A stretch of DNA of 64,000 nt, taken from positions 1-64,000 of the forward strand of contig OMYF01000006.1 in NCBI GenBank assembly GCA_900315205.1, given 5' to 3'. The notes under the pieces were generated by a model. It did no database searches. It was not told the origin of the DNA and worked only from the letters and a program-made list of their open reading frames with translations. The position numbers and the translations under genes were made by a program. This DNA comes from an uncultured Acidaminococcus sp. (lineage in GTDB: Bacteria > Bacillota > Negativicutes > Acidaminococcales > Acidaminococcaceae). Every line of letters starts with the position of its first letter. The first letter of the stretch is position 1. Positions 48,227-57,791 of this stretch are shown piece by piece.

Positions 48227-48769
48227 TTACGCAAGCTCCGGATTGATGAGTCCGTAGTCCCCTTCCCGGCGGCGGTACACCACTGCCATCTTCTCGGTTT
48301 CATCGTTGAAGAAAATGAAGAAGTCATGGTTCAGCATGTTCATCTGCATGATGGCTTCCTGGACATTCATCGGTCTCATCACATAGGTCTTGTTCCTGAC
48401 GACCTTGAAGTCTCCGGCATCGGCCACTTCTTCGTTGGCCACTTCCGGCGGCTCCACTGCATTTTCCTGGAAGTTGGAATACTTCCGCTTCATCAGGCGG
48501 GTCTTGTATTTATGGATCTGTCTGGCGATCTTCTCCACACAGTTGTCGATGGAAGCATACATATTGTCCGTGGACTCCTGGGCCCTGAGGACGATTCCCT
48601 TGGCCGGCACCGTGATTTCCACGATATGTTCATTGCGTTCGACGCGCATCACTGCCGTGATTTCTCCGACGGTCTTGAACTGTTTGGTGATGGCCGTCAC
48701 TCTCTTTTCCACATAGTCCTTTAAAGCAGGGGTTACTACGATGTTTTTTCCGCGTACTCTTACTGCCAT
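48227..48769 (-). CDS. hpf: Ribosome hibernation promoting factor, long form
   Basis: 180 residues. N-terminal S30AE domain (VRVRGKNIVVTPALKDYVEKRVTAITKQF ... VEITVPAKGIVLRAQESTDNMYASIDNCVEKIARQIHKYKTRL) and a C-terminal dimerisation domain (KTYVMRPMNVQEAIMQMNMLNHDFFIFFNDETEKMAVVYRRREGDYGLI), joined by an acidic linker. Long HPF pairs two 70S ribosomes into silent 100S particles in resting cells. RBS GAGGAGG. The leader holds a small inverted repeat (AACAGG/CCTGTT, about 48790-48807); no clear promoter recognised. Confidence 0.95.
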   Translation of the reverse strand: MAVRVRGKNIVVTPALKDYVEKRVTAITKQFKTVGEITAVMRVERNEHIVEITVPAKGIVLRAQESTDNMYASIDNCVEKIARQIHKYKTRLMKRKYSNFQENAVEPPEVANEEVADAGDFKVVRNKTYVMRPMNVQEAIMQMNMLNHDFFIFFNDETEKMAVVYRRREGDYGLINPELA

Positions 48770-51433: not shown

Positions 51434-52243
51434 TTATTTGCTCTCGCTGAACCATTTGTCATAGATTTTTTGGTATTCGCCGCTGTCCTTCAGTTCCTTC
51501 ATGGCCTTGTTGATGCCATCCAGGACATCCTTCTTGTCCTTGGCGACGGCGATGCCGTAGTGGTCGCCCTTCTTGGGTTCACCCACGGCCTTTGCGTAGG
51601 AGGAACCTTTCTGCTTCAGGAAATACTGCAGCACGGGCAGGTCGCTGATCACGGCATCGACATTGCCGTTCTGCAGCTCGATGCAGGCCAGATCGCTCGT
51701 ATCGAAGTTCGTCACCTTGGCGCCTTCGATCTTTTCAGCTTCCATGGCGCCCGTCGTTCCCAGCTGGACACCGATTTTCTTGCCCTTCAGATCGGCCAGG
51801 GAATGGATCGTGTCGTTATCTTTCCGGACAATGGCCATCAGGCCCGAATCATAATAGGGATCGGAGAAGTTGACCTGTTTCTTGCGGGCATCCGTAATGC
51901 TCATTCCGGCGATGGCCGCATCGATATTGCCGGAATTGATGGCCGGGATCAGCGCATCGAATCCCATGCTCTTGATGGTGATTTTCTTGTAGCCCATCTT
52001 TTTGCCGATGGCGTTGATCAGATCGATATCGAAGCCGATAATCTTGCCATCCTTGCCGTCCGGAAATTCAAAAGGCGCAAAAGATGGTTCCGTTCCGACG
52101 ATCAGTTCCTCTTTGGCCGCAGCCGGACTCTTGGCGGCAGTTTCTTTCTTGCCCGTATCCTTGCTGCCGCAGCCGGCCATGACCATACTTGCAGCTACCA
52201 GCATTGCTCCGATCAGTCCTGCAGTCTTTTTCCATTTTCCCAT
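51434..52243 (-). CDS. Second polar amino-acid binding lipoprotein
   Basis: 269 residues, a paralogue of the operon copy. Lipobox SMVMAGCGS, then IVGTEPSFAPFEFPDGKDGKIIGFDIDLINAIGKKMGYKKITIKSMGFDALIPAINSGNIDAAIAGMSIT. It has no permease of its own and probably feeds the same transporter with a different ligand range. ATG at 52243 chosen. It lies downstream of a consensus promoter and a structured leader of about 250 nt, so its expression is likely controlled by RNA structure. The reading frame upstream of 52243 crosses that leader and is not coding. Confidence 0.9.
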   Translation of the reverse strand: MGKWKKTAGLIGAMLVAASMVMAGCGSKDTGKKETAAKSPAAAKEELIVGTEPSFAPFEFPDGKDGKIIGFDIDLINAIGKKMGYKKITIKSMGFDALIPAINSGNIDAAIAGMSITDARKKQVNFSDPYYDSGLMAIVRKDNDTIHSLADLKGKKIGVQLGTTGAMEAEKIEGAKVTNFDTSDLACIELQNGNVDAVISDLPVLQYFLKQKGSSYAKAVGEPKKGDHYGIAVAKDKKDVLDGINKAMKELKDSGEYQKIYDKWFSESK

Positions 52244-52286
52244 GTCTGTCACACCCCTCAATAATATATAGATATATAAATCACGA

Positions 52287-52498
52287 TACAACCCAGCTGA
52301 CCTGGTTTTCGCCCCCACACCCGCCTGCTGGAAGGTTCGCTCCTAAGCATCTCCGGCTCCCCACTACTGCTTCTCTCGCCTTTTACCGGCGGCAGGACTT
52401 ACTTCTAAGCTGCGCCGTGCTCACAATGGATTCCATTGCTTACGTGGATCGCTTTGCCCGCAACTGGCATCGACTTGCAACCACAGACCTGAGTTGTA
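52287..52498 (-). ncRNA. Unidentified multibranched structured leader RNA
   Basis: Transcription from the 52508-52535 promoter should begin at about 52501, right at the base of a closing stem. UACAACUCAG (52498-52489) pairs with CUGGGUUGUA (52296-52287) over 10 unbroken pairs including one G-U. UGGUU (52483-52479) pairs with AACCA (52307-52303) across a 5/6-nt internal loop. Inside are: hairpin CAAUGG/CCAUUG (52438-52424), hairpin CUUA/UAAG (52409-52398), and a closed branch CCUGC (52396-52392) with GCAGG (52328-52324). That branch holds CGCC/GGCG (52391-52377) and AAGCA/UGCUU (52372-52345). The wobble pair would be an A-C mismatch in RNA from the other strand, which supports this orientation. 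It matches no riboswitch I know. Confidence 0.6.
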
Positions 52499-52507
52499 TA
52501 TTTATTT

Positions 52508-52535
52508 ATCATAACAGACTTTTTCCCATTGTCAA
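52508..52535 (-). promoter_or_regulatory. Promoter of the structured leader and second binding-protein gene
   Basis: TTGACA (52535-52530), 16 bp and TATGAT (52513-52508) on the minus strand. The remaining stretch to 52759 is AT-rich and holds no gene I can support. Confidence 0.8.
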
Positions 52536-52759
52536 CCAAAAATTTGAATTCCATTACCTGCTTCTTGTATACAAGATTTTCTGTAACAAGAGGTACAGGC
52601 GGCAGGAAAATTAAAAATGTAATTTTATTCATTTATTATAATGAAAATTCGCATTCTTTTTGGGTGCGGACGTTCCGCAGCCCGGAAAACGGCTTGCTTT
52701 CAGTCCTGTAAACAGTCCCGCTCTTATGCATCCTGCCTTCCGGCACTGAGGCGGAAGTG

Positions 52760-52788
52760 TTTTCAAGCGGGAAAATTTATAGTATACT
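52760..52788 (+). promoter_or_regulatory. Promoter of the HD-GYP gene
   Basis: TTTTCA (52760-52765), 17 bp, TATACT (52783-52788), with a leader of about 105 nt before the ATG. Confidence 0.55.
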
Positions 52789-52900
52789 AGAAGCCGTAGC
52801 GGTCCGAAACGGTCAGGGAGGCTGCTGCCCTCCCGCAATGACCGGGGATACGGCACGCTGCATCCATCATCGAGTTGCGTAAAGTGAAGGTCGAAATTCC

Positions 52901-53539
52901 ATGCTTACTATTCCCCAGTTCCTGGATTTTCCAATGGATCCGGATACAAAAGACATCGTCAGCTTTTTCCTGAAGCTGCTTGAAAAAAAGAATAAGGATT
53001 TGTTCCTGCACTGCCAGCAGGTCGCGAATTATGCCGTCTGCACTGCCGTCAAGATGGGACTTTCCGTCGATGAGATCGCGCAGATCAAGACTGCGGCCCT
53101 GCTCCATGATATCGGTCAGCTGAGCGTGCCCAATGCAGTCCTCATCAAATATCCCTACTTCAACGTACGGGAAAGAGCGGCATACCGCCGTCATTGCCAG
53201 ATGGGCGCCAGCATGATGGAAAATATATCTGATCTTGACCGCGTGGCAAAGATCATCCTGCATCATCATGAGAACTGGAACGGCACGGGCTATCCCAAAC
53301 GCCTGAAGGGCGTGAACATCCCGATCGGTTCCCGCATCATTGCCGTCTGCAACTATTATGACCGCAAGTGCAAGCCCTGCATCCGCAACTGGCAGCGCCT
53401 GGGTGCCCGCCCTGTGCAGACCATCAAGGACAATGCGGGGATCCTCTTCGATCCCGATGTCGTCCGCGCCTTCTTTGCCGCTGTCGTGCAGGAAAAGAGC
53501 AGCCGCCAGAACAAGCTTTCCGGCATCGCAAGAGCCTGA
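52901..53539 (+). CDS. HD-GYP-type phosphohydrolase
   Basis: 212 residues. The HD site LLHDIGQLSVPN (about 66-78) and the later HHHENWNGTGYPKRLKGVNIPIGSRIIAVCNYYD carry the metal ligands and the GYP motif that marks HD-GYP enzymes, which cleave cyclic-di-GMP or related nucleotides. There is no attached sensor or receiver domain, and the C-terminus is shorter than in full HD-GYP proteins (about 210 against 250-350 with sensor). GAAGG lies 12 bases before the ATG. It ends in a very strong terminator. The cyclic nucleotide substrate is inferred from the family. Confidence 0.8.
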   Translation: MLTIPQFLDFPMDPDTKDIVSFFLKLLEKKNKDLFLHCQQVANYAVCTAVKMGLSVDEIAQIKTAALLHDIGQLSVPNAVLIKYPYFNVRERAAYRRHCQMGASMMENISDLDRVAKIILHHHENWNGTGYPKRLKGVNIPIGSRIIAVCNYYDRKCKPCIRNWQRLGARPVQTIKDNAGILFDPDVVRAFFAAVVQEKSSRQNKLSGIARA

Positions 53540-53799: not shown

Positions 53800-55200
53800 T
53801 CAACCCTGAGCGGCTACCCGTTCTTCTTTGGCGGAAGTCTCCCCTGACAAAAGATACGAAATGCACTCAAGGATGGTCTGGGTCATGTTGACGACCCAGA
53901 ATTCACCTGCCTCCGTGAGCCGGTAATGGATGCCGTTCCAGTGCCAGAGCCCGCAGTCCTCCCAGAGATCCGCAAGCCACTGCAGACCTGCAAGACGGGC
54001 GTCCATGCCCTTCAGCGCCGTCAGATCGAAGCGGCACTGGTTCATATCGCCCTGGACGACGGCTTCAAAAGAGGCCAGAGGGGACTGGCGGGACAGAAAC
54101 ATAAAGGGTTTCTGTCCTGCCTCGACCATTTTTTCATACACAGGAAGCGACCGGTGCAGCATGGTCGAAAGGCCGCCCGCGTGACCGCCGGCACCGCAGC
54201 CGAAGGGGAACAGATCAGCTCCCGCACGGGCCAGTGTGTTGTAGAGGCTCCGCTCGCGGTTGTTCCTTGCCCAGTGGCAGTGGCTCAGCCGCTTGTACCC
54301 GCACCGCTCCAGATAGTCCCGGCCAAAGCTGAACATGGCAGTCTGCTCGGCTGTCGTCGCTGCCGCAGACAGCCTGCCGCCCGCAATCGCTTTCTGAAGA
54401 TCGCTCTTTTCAAAGACATCGAGCTGGTACAGATCAGCGCCGTCGATACCGGACGCCACGAACTGCTTCACATCATGTTCCCACACTTCCATCGTCTGGT
54501 CCGGCAGGCCGAACATGAGATCGATGACGACGGAGCACTGGTTACAGGCCTTAAGGGCCGCCAGCCTTTCCAGGACGGCTTCTTCCGTATCGATCCGGCC
54601 GACCTGCCGGCGGACCTTCGTATTGAAGGACTGGACGCCCAGGGACATGCGGTTTACGCCCTCCTCCATCCAGACATCCATCTTCTCCGGCACCAGGTCA
54701 TGGATCCGCCCTTCCAGAGTCAGCTCATAATCGTTGGCAAGGGGCAGATACGTCCGGATGGCATGCAGCAGCCGGCGGGCATTTTCAGGCGAAAGCGAGG
54801 TCGGCGTCCCGCCGCCGATGAAGACAGCATGGATCGGTGCGCTCTGGATCCGCGGTGCGCCGGCTGCCCGGGAAAGCTCGAGTATGAGATGGTCCACATA
54901 GCGGTCTTCCACTTCCTGATCCGTCCCATTCTGGAAAAAGCCGCAGTAGAGGCACTTGGTCTTGCAGAAAGGGATATGGAAGTAGGCCATCCGGATGGGT
55001 GGATCCGTCTCCACGGGAACTGCCATGCACTGCTTCCATTCCTTCTGGGCCAGGGGCGGCGGCACCATGGAACCCTTGAGACCGGCATGGACGGTACGCT
55101 TTTTCGTAAAAGCACCCCGCAGCGGATCTTCACTTTTCACGCCGAAAAGAAGGTGCCGCTTTGCTTCAGGAAGAGAAAGATAAAATTGCTCCAGCCCCAT
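53800..55200 (-). CDS. hutW: HutW/ChuW-type anaerobic haem-degrading radical SAM methyltransferase
   Basis: 466 residues. The radical SAM cluster motif is CKTKCLYC (Cys79, 83, 86), in the HemN-like arrangement YFHIPFCKTKCLYCGFF. GGGTPTSLS, GVNRMSLGVQSFN and VVIDLMFGLPDQT follow, with a C-terminal HemN-type region. The N-terminal extension and the setting beside TonB receptors and a flavodoxin point to HutW/ChuW, which opens the haem ring without oxygen to release iron, rather than HemN of haem synthesis. Four bases separate it from the flavodoxin gene. Last gene of the haem locus; a HemN/HemW-like housekeeping role is the alternative. Confidence 0.85.
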   Translation of the reverse strand: MGLEQFYLSLPEAKRHLLFGVKSEDPLRGAFTKKRTVHAGLKGSMVPPPLAQKEWKQCMAVPVETDPPIRMAYFHIPFCKTKCLYCGFFQNGTDQEVEDRYVDHLILELSRAAGAPRIQSAPIHAVFIGGGTPTSLSPENARRLLHAIRTYLPLANDYELTLEGRIHDLVPEKMDVWMEEGVNRMSLGVQSFNTKVRRQVGRIDTEEAVLERLAALKACNQCSVVIDLMFGLPDQTMEVWEHDVKQFVASGIDGADLYQLDVFEKSDLQKAIAGGRLSAAATTAEQTAMFSFGRDYLERCGYKRLSHCHWARNNRERSLYNTLARAGADLFPFGCGAGGHAGGLSTMLHRSLPVYEKMVEAGQKPFMFLSRQSPLASFEAVVQGDMNQCRFDLTALKGMDARLAGLQWLADLWEDCGLWHWNGIHYRLTEAGEFWVVNMTQTILECISYLLSGETSAKEERVAAQG

Positions 55201-55203
55201 AAA

Positions 55204-55737
55204 CTATTCCTTTCCTTCTGCGAGTGCCATCGTCTTTCTGGCAAAAGCGGCCGCTGCTGCCAGGTCTTCTGCATCGGGATGGGTGGATGCCGCTTTATGA
55301 CGGGCTTCGCTTGCCGCGTTCCGGCCGTGCAGGCTTTCGGGCGGAAAGCGTTTGTACATTTCCTCGATCAGTTTGGGATCCACTTTGCCCTGACAGAGGA
55401 ATGTACTGACAGGGACTTTCCCGTCCGGCAGCAGTGCCGCGGCGTTTGCCATGCTTTTGGCGGCATGTTCCGATTTCGGATCGGCTCCCAGTGTCCCGAA
55501 GAGAGCTGCATAAGGATTCCGGATTTCCCTGAGGACAGCCTGGGAAGCAGCATCCGCAGTCCCCTTATCCACCCAGAACCCCATGAACACACAGTCATAC
55601 CGCGGCAAATCCTGCGGAACGCCGGCCAGGATACCGATGTCAAGGCACGGCGACCCCGCGGGCAGAGCCGAAGCAATCGCTTCGGCCACCTTTCTGGTAT
55701 TTCCCGTACGGGAAGAATAAAGAACAAGATATTTCAT
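55204..55737 (-). CDS. Flavodoxin-like protein of the haem locus
   Basis: 177 residues. MKYLVLYSSRTGNTRKVAEAIASAL has the FMN phosphate loop SSRTGNT, and YDCVFMGFWVDKGTADA (about 52-68) and LFGTLGADP (about 88) complete the FMN site. In haem-degrading bacteria a flavodoxin-like partner next to the radical SAM enzyme supplies electrons or reduces the linear tetrapyrrole product, and I infer one of those roles. ATG at 55737 with AAAGGAG 9 bases upstream. It follows the first TonB receptor gene by 74 bp. Confidence 0.82.
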   Translation of the reverse strand: MKYLVLYSSRTGNTRKVAEAIASALPAGSPCLDIGILAGVPQDLPRYDCVFMGFWVDKGTADAASQAVLREIRNPYAALFGTLGADPKSEHAAKSMANAAALLPDGKVPVSTFLCQGKVDPKLIEEMYKRFPPESLHGRNAASEARHKAASTHPDAEDLAAAAAFARKTMALAEGKE

Positions 55738-55811
55738 TGCAGGCACTCCTTTGCAAAAGTCTGTTTCCATTTGTCATGCTGGCGGCAGTCCGTCAGCTTC
55801 ACAGCACTCCG

Positions 55812-57791
55812 TCAGAATTTCCATTCCATGCCGGCTCTCCAGACACGGCCGTCGGTCCAGATACTGTCGGTGCTGTCGAATTTCTTGTTGAAGAGGTTGT
55901 CCACACCGGCGTACAGGGACATTTTGCCAATGTCCTTCGTCACGACGAAATTAGTCAGGCTGTAGCTGTAGCTCTTATTGTTGGCGCTGGTCAGGTAATT
56001 CTGGTACCACTGGTTGTACAGCGTGGCCGTCCAGGGATCCTTTTTGGCATCGGTCCAGGACAGTTCCACCGTACCGGTATTGAGGGCTCTGCCGGTCAGG
56101 CGGCTGCCGGTATTGTCATCCCGCGCATCGAGGTAGGTATAATTGGCACGGGCACTCCAGTGCTTGTCAAAGCGATATTTCGTCTCTGCCTCGAGACCGT
56201 CGAAGGTCGCCTTATCCACATTGCGGTAACGGTAGATGAAAGTCATGGCCCCGTTCATAAAACCTCTGAACTCGGCCTGGGAATCGATGAGGTTGCTGAT
56301 CTTGTTGTGGAAATAGGTCAGCTTACCCGTCGCCTTGCCTTTTTCGCCTTCCAGGCTGATATCGAAGTTCGTGGACTTTTCAGGCTCCAGGTCCGGATTC
56401 CCTTCCACGATGACGCGCATCCGCGCAATGGGAGAATGGATCATCTGGGAGTACAGTTCAAAAATGGTCGGGGCCCGGAACGCCTTGCCGTAGTTCACCT
56501 TGATCCGGCTGGCCTTGCTCAGGTTGTAGGTCATACCGACGCGCGGGGACCATTCGCTGCCGAAGCTGCCGTGGTGATCGAAACGGACGGAAGGCACGAA
56601 GAACAGTCTGTCGCCCAGCTCGATTTCATCCTGCAGATAGAATGAATAGGAATTCTGGCTGGCCGATCCGTAAGGACTCTCCATGCCCAGATACTCTTCG
56701 ACACGGGTCCCGCCGCCCGCATTGGCGAAACGGGTGCCGCCGGCCTTTTGATTCTTGAATTCCATCCCGTAGGTCAGCGTATTGTGCTTATCCATCCGGT
56801 ACGTGTTCCTGGCTTCATTCACCCAGGTGGAGTAACGGGCATGGTTGAAATCGGTCCAGCTCGTTTCGGAGCGGGTCCTTCCCACTTTGCCGAGACGGCT
56901 GTAGTAGGACTGGACCTCCCAGTCGTTTTTATTGTCGAAGCCGTAGTACTTCAGATGATAATCGGAACGGTTGTTGTCATAATAGCTTGTCGTACTGCCC
57001 GCTGTCGTGCTGGCAGCAAGGCTCGTCAGCTGCTCCTTCATGAAGCTGGCGCCAAAATCCAGTCCGCTGTGATCATTGAACTTGTAGTCGCCGTGGAAGG
57101 AAATATTCCGGCGCGGCCCGTACTGGTTGGTGCTGCCCTCGTTCGTTTCCCTGCGGACCTTTGTCAGATTGAAATCAACGTCCAGATTCAGTTTACCCAC
57201 ATTCCCCGTGGAGAATCCGCCATATACAGAAGATTCCAGGCTGCCCGTACGGACGCCGGCATACCCGCCCGCAGGCTGGTCTTTCTTTGTGATGATGTTG
57301 ATGACACCGCCCGTGGCATCACTGCCCCAGATGGCGGAACCGGATCCGCGGAGGATTTCCACGCGTTCGATATTGTTCACATTGAGGCGGTCCAGTTCAT
57401 AGGCATTCATAGTGCTGGCGGAATCTTCGCCGGCGATCCGCCGGCCGTCCACCAGGATCAGGGTTTCCGTGGTTCCCATACCGCGGATGCTCACATTGTT
57501 CCCGACCATGGAAGTGCCGTTGCGGGATACGTCGATGCTCACTGCGTTCTTGATGGCATCCCGTACGTTATAAGCACCTTTCTGCTTCATCTCTTCTGCC
57601 GTGATGACGGTCGTGGACATGGGGACTTTCTTTTCGGAAAGCTTCGTCTTTGTCGCCGTAACGACAGTTTCTCCCAGATCATAATCCGTCAGTTCTTCCG
57701 CGGCTTCCGCACAGGAAAAAATACCGCTTCCCATGGCTGCCACAAGGCAGAGCACTCCCAGGGCCCTGCTTCTGTTTCCTTTGTTTTCCAT
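55812..57791 (-). CDS. TonB-dependent outer-membrane receptor (inner copy)
   Basis: 659 residues: signal peptide to about AEAAEE, TonB box region GETVVTATK, plug domain (about 50-165; VSIRGMGTTETLILVDGRRIAGE, RVEILRGSGSAIWGSDATGGVINIITKK) and a 22-strand barrel ending in GRVWRAGMEWKF with the final aromatic residue required for outer-membrane insertion. It resembles CirA/HmuR-type receptors for catecholate or haem. Together with the second copy and HutW it probably takes up haem. RBS AAAGG 9 bases before the ATG. Confidence 0.9.
   Translation of the reverse strand: MENKGNRSRALGVLCLVAAMGSGIFSCAEAAEELTDYDLGETVVTATKTKLSEKKVPMSTTVITAEEMKQKGAYNVRDAIKNAVSIDVSRNGTSMVGNNVSIRGMGTTETLILVDGRRIAGEDSASTMNAYELDRLNVNNIERVEILRGSGSAIWGSDATGGVINIITKKDQPAGGYAGVRTGSLESSVYGGFSTGNVGKLNLDVDFNLTKVRRETNEGSTNQYGPRRNISFHGDYKFNDHSGLDFGASFMKEQLTSLAASTTAGSTTSYYDNNRSDYHLKYYGFDNKNDWEVQSYYSRLGKVGRTRSETSWTDFNHARYSTWVNEARNTYRMDKHNTLTYGMEFKNQKAGGTRFANAGGGTRVEEYLGMESPYGSASQNSYSFYLQDEIELGDRLFFVPSVRFDHHGSFGSEWSPRVGMTYNLSKASRIKVNYGKAFRAPTIFELYSQMIHSPIARMRVIVEGNPDLEPEKSTNFDISLEGEKGKATGKLTYFHNKISNLIDSQAEFRGFMNGAMTFIYRYRNVDKATFDGLEAETKYRFDKHWSARANYTYLDARDDNTGSRLTGRALNTGTVELSWTDAKKDPWTATLYNQWYQNYLTSANNKSYSYSLTNFVVTKDIGKMSLYAGVDNLFNKKFDSTDSIWTDGRVWRAGMEWKF

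Follow-up and report, generated by a model that had tools for sequence, protein, structure and literature searches.

A full-length raiA (ModT) RNA upstream of an amino-acid transporter operon in an uncultured Acidaminococcus

The structured element encoded on the minus strand at 52497–52288 of the window (the whole 64,000-nt stretch of uncultured Acidaminococcus DNA that was analysed) is, judged from its sequence, a raiA (ModT) RNA. This structured noncoding RNA, deeply conserved in Bacillota and Actinomycetota, has already been described, and the find itself is ordinary. In all likelihood the element is made as a stable RNA of about 210 nt from its own σA-type promoter and acts in trans in a growth-phase transition. 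The source genome (2.27 Mb in 95 contigs, about 90% complete) carries one copy.

Identity and structure of the RNA

An Rfam scan of the whole window gave two matches at gathering score, a tRNA (32700–32629) and the raiA RNA, which was matched by RF03072 over its full length (model positions 1–209) with 197.9 bits and an E-value of 8.3e-51, the gathering cut-off of the family being 101.3 bits. The ends of the match lie within one base, at either side, of those proposed in an earlier note that was made from the sequence alone and had described an unassigned leader RNA, possibly a riboswitch of a new class, controlling the adjacent amino-acid gene. A confident match to a known family was named in that note beforehand as speaking against its reading, and the words “unassigned” and “new class” fall with the RF03072 match; the alternative that the note had offered, a free-standing RNA such as raiA, turned out to be the answer. 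Beyond its complex structure the element offers nothing in favor of a new riboswitch class or some other unassigned RNA, and this reading, whose probability is next to nil, was rejected on the full-length match and on the two-pseudoknot architecture (pk-1 and pk-2) that the element has in common with raiA RNA. Like the riboswitches for metabolites such as lysine, glutamine and glycine, the locus has a structured RNA ahead of an amino-acid transporter gene, but none of these families reached its gathering score in the window, and the locus differs from them in having a variable downstream gene.

The features of the locus are collected in Table 1. The 10-pair closing stem seen in the earlier note was verified: 52498–52489 pairs with 52296–52287 and encloses exactly 212 nt. 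So was its strand, since the G-U pair in this stem (U52492–G52293) fits the minus-strand RNA, and transcription of the plus strand would put A opposite C there. The inner helices, including the closed branch with nested helices, are likewise present and correspond to P3, P5 and P6–P8.

Table 1. Features of the raiA RNA locus (window coordinates).
Feature	Position	Strand	Basis or remark
σA/σ70-type promoter, TTGACA - 16 nt - TATGAT, TG before the -10 (extended -10)	52508–52535	-	11 of 12 consensus matches
raiA (ModT) RNA	52288–52497	-	RF03072, model positions 1–209
Closing helix P1, 5' strand	52479–52498	-	pairs with 52307–52287; two-sided changes in 13 of 18 pairs (helices 1–2)
Closing helix P1, 3' strand	52287–52307	-	covariation alignment
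P3 hairpin (GCC / GGC)	52456–52468	-	100% paired in 65 sequences; architecture as in PMC11751092
pk-1, first half (P3 loop AGUUGCG)	52465–52459	-	
pk-1, second half (CGCAGCU)	52408–52414	-	7 pairs with 52465–52459; 98.9% paired, two-sided changes in two pairs
Variable hairpin P5 (CAAUGG / CCAUUG)	52424–52438	-	five-pair main part 98.2% paired, 5 of 5 covarying
pk-2, first half (C52417, G52416)	52416–52417	-	pairs with G52310 and C52311
pk-2, second half	52310–52311	-	pair counts in 65 sequences
Closed branch P6–P8, two nested hairpins	52324–52396	-	helices 8–13 in the covariation test
Helices of the closed branch	52396–52392 with 52328–52324; 52391–52388 with 52380–52377; 52373–52331	-	
Spacer between RNA and binding-protein gene, 44 nt	52244–52287	-	GAGGGG ribosome-binding site, 52259–52254
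Polar amino-acid ABC transporter substrate-binding lipoprotein (SBP_bac_3), binding protein 1	51434–52243	-	PF00497, E = 6.8e-44
Second binding protein	51274–50492	-	PF00497
Permease	50454–49798	-	PF00528
ATPase	49808–49077	-	PF00005
HPF/raiA-type ribosome hibernation factor gene	48227–48769	-	PF02482, PF16321, TIGR00741

The folding energy is unremarkable: the MFE of -72.8 kcal/mol has a z of -0.77, and 44 of 200 shuffles fold equally well. Since this is no better than shuffled sequence, stability was dropped as evidence. Evidence for the structure comes instead from 65 distinct Negativicutes copies, which were aligned with MAFFT and not fitted to any structure. Pairs were counted on the Rfam structure, to which the P3 stem and pk-1 were added from the cryo-EM model, in which the P3 loop and the pk-loop form a pseudoknot of seven pairs (PMC11751092). 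Canonical pairs filled 95.4% of the pair cells and two-sided changes were found in 31 of the 54 pairs, against means of 82.4% and 22.2 pairs in a shuffle control in which 0 of 500 reached the observed values, although the tested structure derives in part from the family model and the homologues are related in sequence. Compensatory cells numbered 538, compared with 158 in the shuffles, and sliding the structure by 1–3 columns lowered the paired fraction to 28–47%. The P1, P5 and P8 helices vary widely in sequence while keeping their pairing.

The second pseudoknot, pk-2, consists of two pairs that connect the pk-loop with the P4–P1c junction. Its outer pair is U-A in 44 of the 65 sequences and C-G in the other 21, with no exception, and the C-G form is found in family f1 and again in family f35. 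At the inner position, 57 sequences have G-C, four have A-U and four are unpaired. The covariation among Negativicutes homologues that had been proposed as a check is thus strong and includes both core pseudoknots. By comparison of homologues, not by folding energy, the structure is beyond chance.

Promoter, gene neighborhood and distribution

The near-consensus promoter reported in the earlier note is the best site in a consensus scan of 52000–52900, and nearly all Acidaminococcaceae loci have such a promoter ahead of the raiA RNA. An RNA start at the base of the closing stem is consistent with its position. The note had also placed the RNA directly upstream of an amino-acid binding lipoprotein, which is borne out by a family-3 (PF00497) match. 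On the minus strand, the RNA is followed by the genes for binding proteins 1 and 2, the permease, the ATPase, HPF and secA, in that order.

The raiA RNA was named after the HPF (raiA) gene, which in the window is found on the same strand, 3.5 kb downstream of the RNA. A raiA gene downstream and comFC upstream are a frequent, though not universal, neighborhood of these RNAs. According to a review, raiA RNAs are often found upstream of RaiA genes or of genes for periplasmic binding proteins, at distances and in orientations that do not fit a riboswitch (PMC11477304). The position upstream of binding-protein genes is therefore already known. The locus shares with other raiA RNAs the full-length sequence and structure, the closure by P1, both pseudoknots, the σA promoter, the single copy, the nearby HPF gene and the place ahead of a binding-protein gene, and differs in details only: a gap of 44 nt to the next gene with no terminator, a transporter operon that separates the RNA from the HPF gene, and a genome in which a diguanylate cyclase was not detected.

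Of 25 Acidaminococcaceae loci, counting the one in the window, 22 have the binding-protein gene as the first gene after the RNA. A gene for a treble-clef zinc-finger protein (PF13451) takes this place in 42 loci from 26 families, 19 of them other Negativicutes families and seven outside the class (L058-L064, L069-L071, L086, L088, L090-L094, L096-L099, L101, L103-L105, L107-L112, L114, L116, L118, L119, L128, L129, L131-L133, L142 and L143). It starts mostly 32–42 nt after the RNA and has a GTGAGGGGAT-like ribosome-binding site that is conserved; the P1 stem of these loci is usually longer. Co-transcription of the RNA and the zinc-finger gene seems likely from this arrangement. After the zinc-finger gene, the transporter, HPF and secA usually come next, and in other lineages the next recognized gene encodes a cold-shock protein, a permease, CysS or SecA. 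These gene orders place the transporter within an old block, RNA – (zinc-finger gene) – transporter – HPF – secA, and it is not a specific target of the RNA.

A match to the raiA RNA was found in 181 of 300 Negativicutes genomes sampled (177 above the cut-off), representing 67 of 97 genera, and in 34 of 299 genomes in a sample of the phylum.

Elsewhere in the window, 53800–57791 (-) is a likely haem-use operon. It encodes a TonB-dependent receptor-like protein (55812–57791) and a flavodoxin-like protein (55204–55770), both judged by sequence, and a ChuW/HutW radical SAM enzyme of anaerobic haem degradation (53800–55200; TIGR04107, 482 bits, cut-off 400).

Separate RNA or mRNA leader

ModT is a very abundant RNA in clostridia, where it acts in trans; modT has a σA promoter at its 5' end, and complementation in trans in C. 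difficile and C. acetobutylicum excludes a purely cis-acting riboswitch in these species (PMC11706538). The Acidaminococcus RNA shares with ModT of Clostridioides difficile the family, the promoter type and the expected action in trans, whereas two ends are reported for the C. difficile transcript, which lies ahead of a PTS antiterminator gene (PMC11706538). The Acidaminococcus RNA is probably transcribed from its own σA-type promoter, and it folds into a compact structure closed by P1 and held by the two pseudoknots. Most likely, it would accumulate in stable form as an RNA of its own, about 210 nt long, and act in trans in a growth-phase transition, as clostridial ModT does. Abundance and trans action were demonstrated in other species, and the same role in Acidaminococcus is inferred from these.

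The RNA and the binding-protein gene are on the same strand, unusually close at 44 nt apart, and probably form one transcription unit. By consensus scan, neither a terminator nor an inner promoter was found in the spacer on the minus strand, which makes read-through into the gene likely. Similarly short gaps (31–51 nt) occur in several other Acidaminococcus species and in one other member of the family. Here and in these Acidaminococcus species, the binding-protein gene probably relies on transcripts that read through from the raiA promoter. Some or all transcripts would thus continue into the gene, and free raiA RNA would presumably be released by processing.

Most of the Acidaminococcaceae relatives have a longer gap. 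Among the gaps of at least 70 nt in this family and in relatives of the same order, 17 of 20 contain an exact TATAAT, where 5.0 were expected by shuffling over all 26 gaps tested; this pooled count carries the support for inner promoters, as single sites are mostly non-significant against shuffles, and the loci are related and non-independent. Clear terminators are present in a few of the longer-gap relatives. Taken together, the TATAAT excess and the terminators suggest that the binding-protein gene is transcribed separately in those relatives, and that in most relatives it probably has a promoter of its own.

These data also bear on whether the RNA controls, or also controls, the binding-protein gene in cis, for example as a riboswitch or through growth-phase-dependent processing. 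The uninterrupted 44-nt spacer, the similarly short gaps in other Acidaminococcus species, and the leader-like spacing and conserved ribosome-binding site of the zinc-finger loci would all suit a leader, and Rfam types RF03072 as “Cis-reg; riboswitch”, a label that conflicts with the published trans-complementation. However, most Acidaminococcaceae loci have the longer gap, with its excess of TATAAT and some terminators, and the first downstream gene changes with the lineage. Furthermore, no expression platform, either a terminator or a sequestered start coupled to the RNA, was found at the locus: the ribosome-binding site pairs weakly and locally with the spacer (52268–52272), outside the raiA RNA. 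With the trans-complementation in two clostridia (PMC11706538) added to this, cis control is improbable. Of the earlier reading, the minus-strand RNA, its high degree of structure and its promoter were upheld, while control of the amino-acid gene found no support, given the varying neighbor, the lack of a recognizable platform and the clostridial complementation. The raiA promoter would probably also feed the transporter gene, with the RNA not serving as its riboswitch.

A variant of this arrangement is that, in the short-gap lineages (mostly 31–51 nt, with no terminator), the raiA RNA is not simply free-standing but begins as the 5' leader on an mRNA, is freed by cleavage or end-trimming, and possibly exerts some effect in cis. 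This is rather unlikely. If true, one transcription event would couple the output of raiA RNA to a growth-linked gene, the zinc-finger gene or, here, the binding-protein gene.

The RNA and c-di-GMP

ModT lowers c-di-GMP in C. difficile, and part of its phenotype, including the effect on sporulation, runs through this messenger (PMC11706538). In contrast, the organism of the window seems unable to make c-di-GMP by a GGDEF enzyme. No GGDEF protein was matched in this genome (about 90% complete) or in 30 of 59 genomes of the family, and nearly all of these 30 carry the raiA RNA. Among 24 complete or near-complete raiA-bearing genomes, 19 had no GGDEF match, single-contig genomes included, a fraction that should not be carried over to the class, as the set was picked for completeness from several families, mostly ones with reduced genomes. 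At least four Negativicutes families contain complete or near-complete genomes that keep the RNA at full score and gave no GGDEF match. G050, G060, G075, G092, G096, G136 and G043, among others, are complete genomes that yielded a full-length raiA RNA and not a single GGDEF match.

Divergent from the raiA RNA is a stand-alone, HD-GYP-like gene at 52901–53539 (+; PF13487). It contains the motifs HDIGQ and HHENWNGTGYP, and some of the usual catalytic letters differ.

The RNA might be supposed to work via c-di-GMP in this organism too, with the HD-GYP-like gene as its partner: the effect in C. difficile is established (PMC11706538), no other HD_5 match was found in the genome, and the gene adjoins the raiA RNA in every Acidaminococcaceae locus fetched and in families f28 and f31. 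In flagellated relatives, however, the HD orthologue lies about 11–55 kb upstream of the raiA RNA on the same contig, separated from it by flagellar and associated genes in the one genome checked. Loss of this cluster, with its flagellar genes, best explains why the two are now adjacent, and the neighbor was rejected as a functional partner. In the literature collection that was searched, no report linking raiA with HD-GYP was found. Given also the many raiA-bearing genomes in which GGDEF was not found, a c-di-GMP route through this gene is very improbable.

Since the raiA RNA is kept where GGDEF was not found, its shared role is probably not control of c-di-GMP, and the C. difficile effect is unlikely to be universal. 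The persistence of the RNA where no c-di-GMP-making enzyme is detectable is a clue to the role of the family, toward whose function each well-placed member helps. Acidaminococcus and its relatives would be clean hosts in which to seek a c-di-GMP-independent role of raiA RNA.
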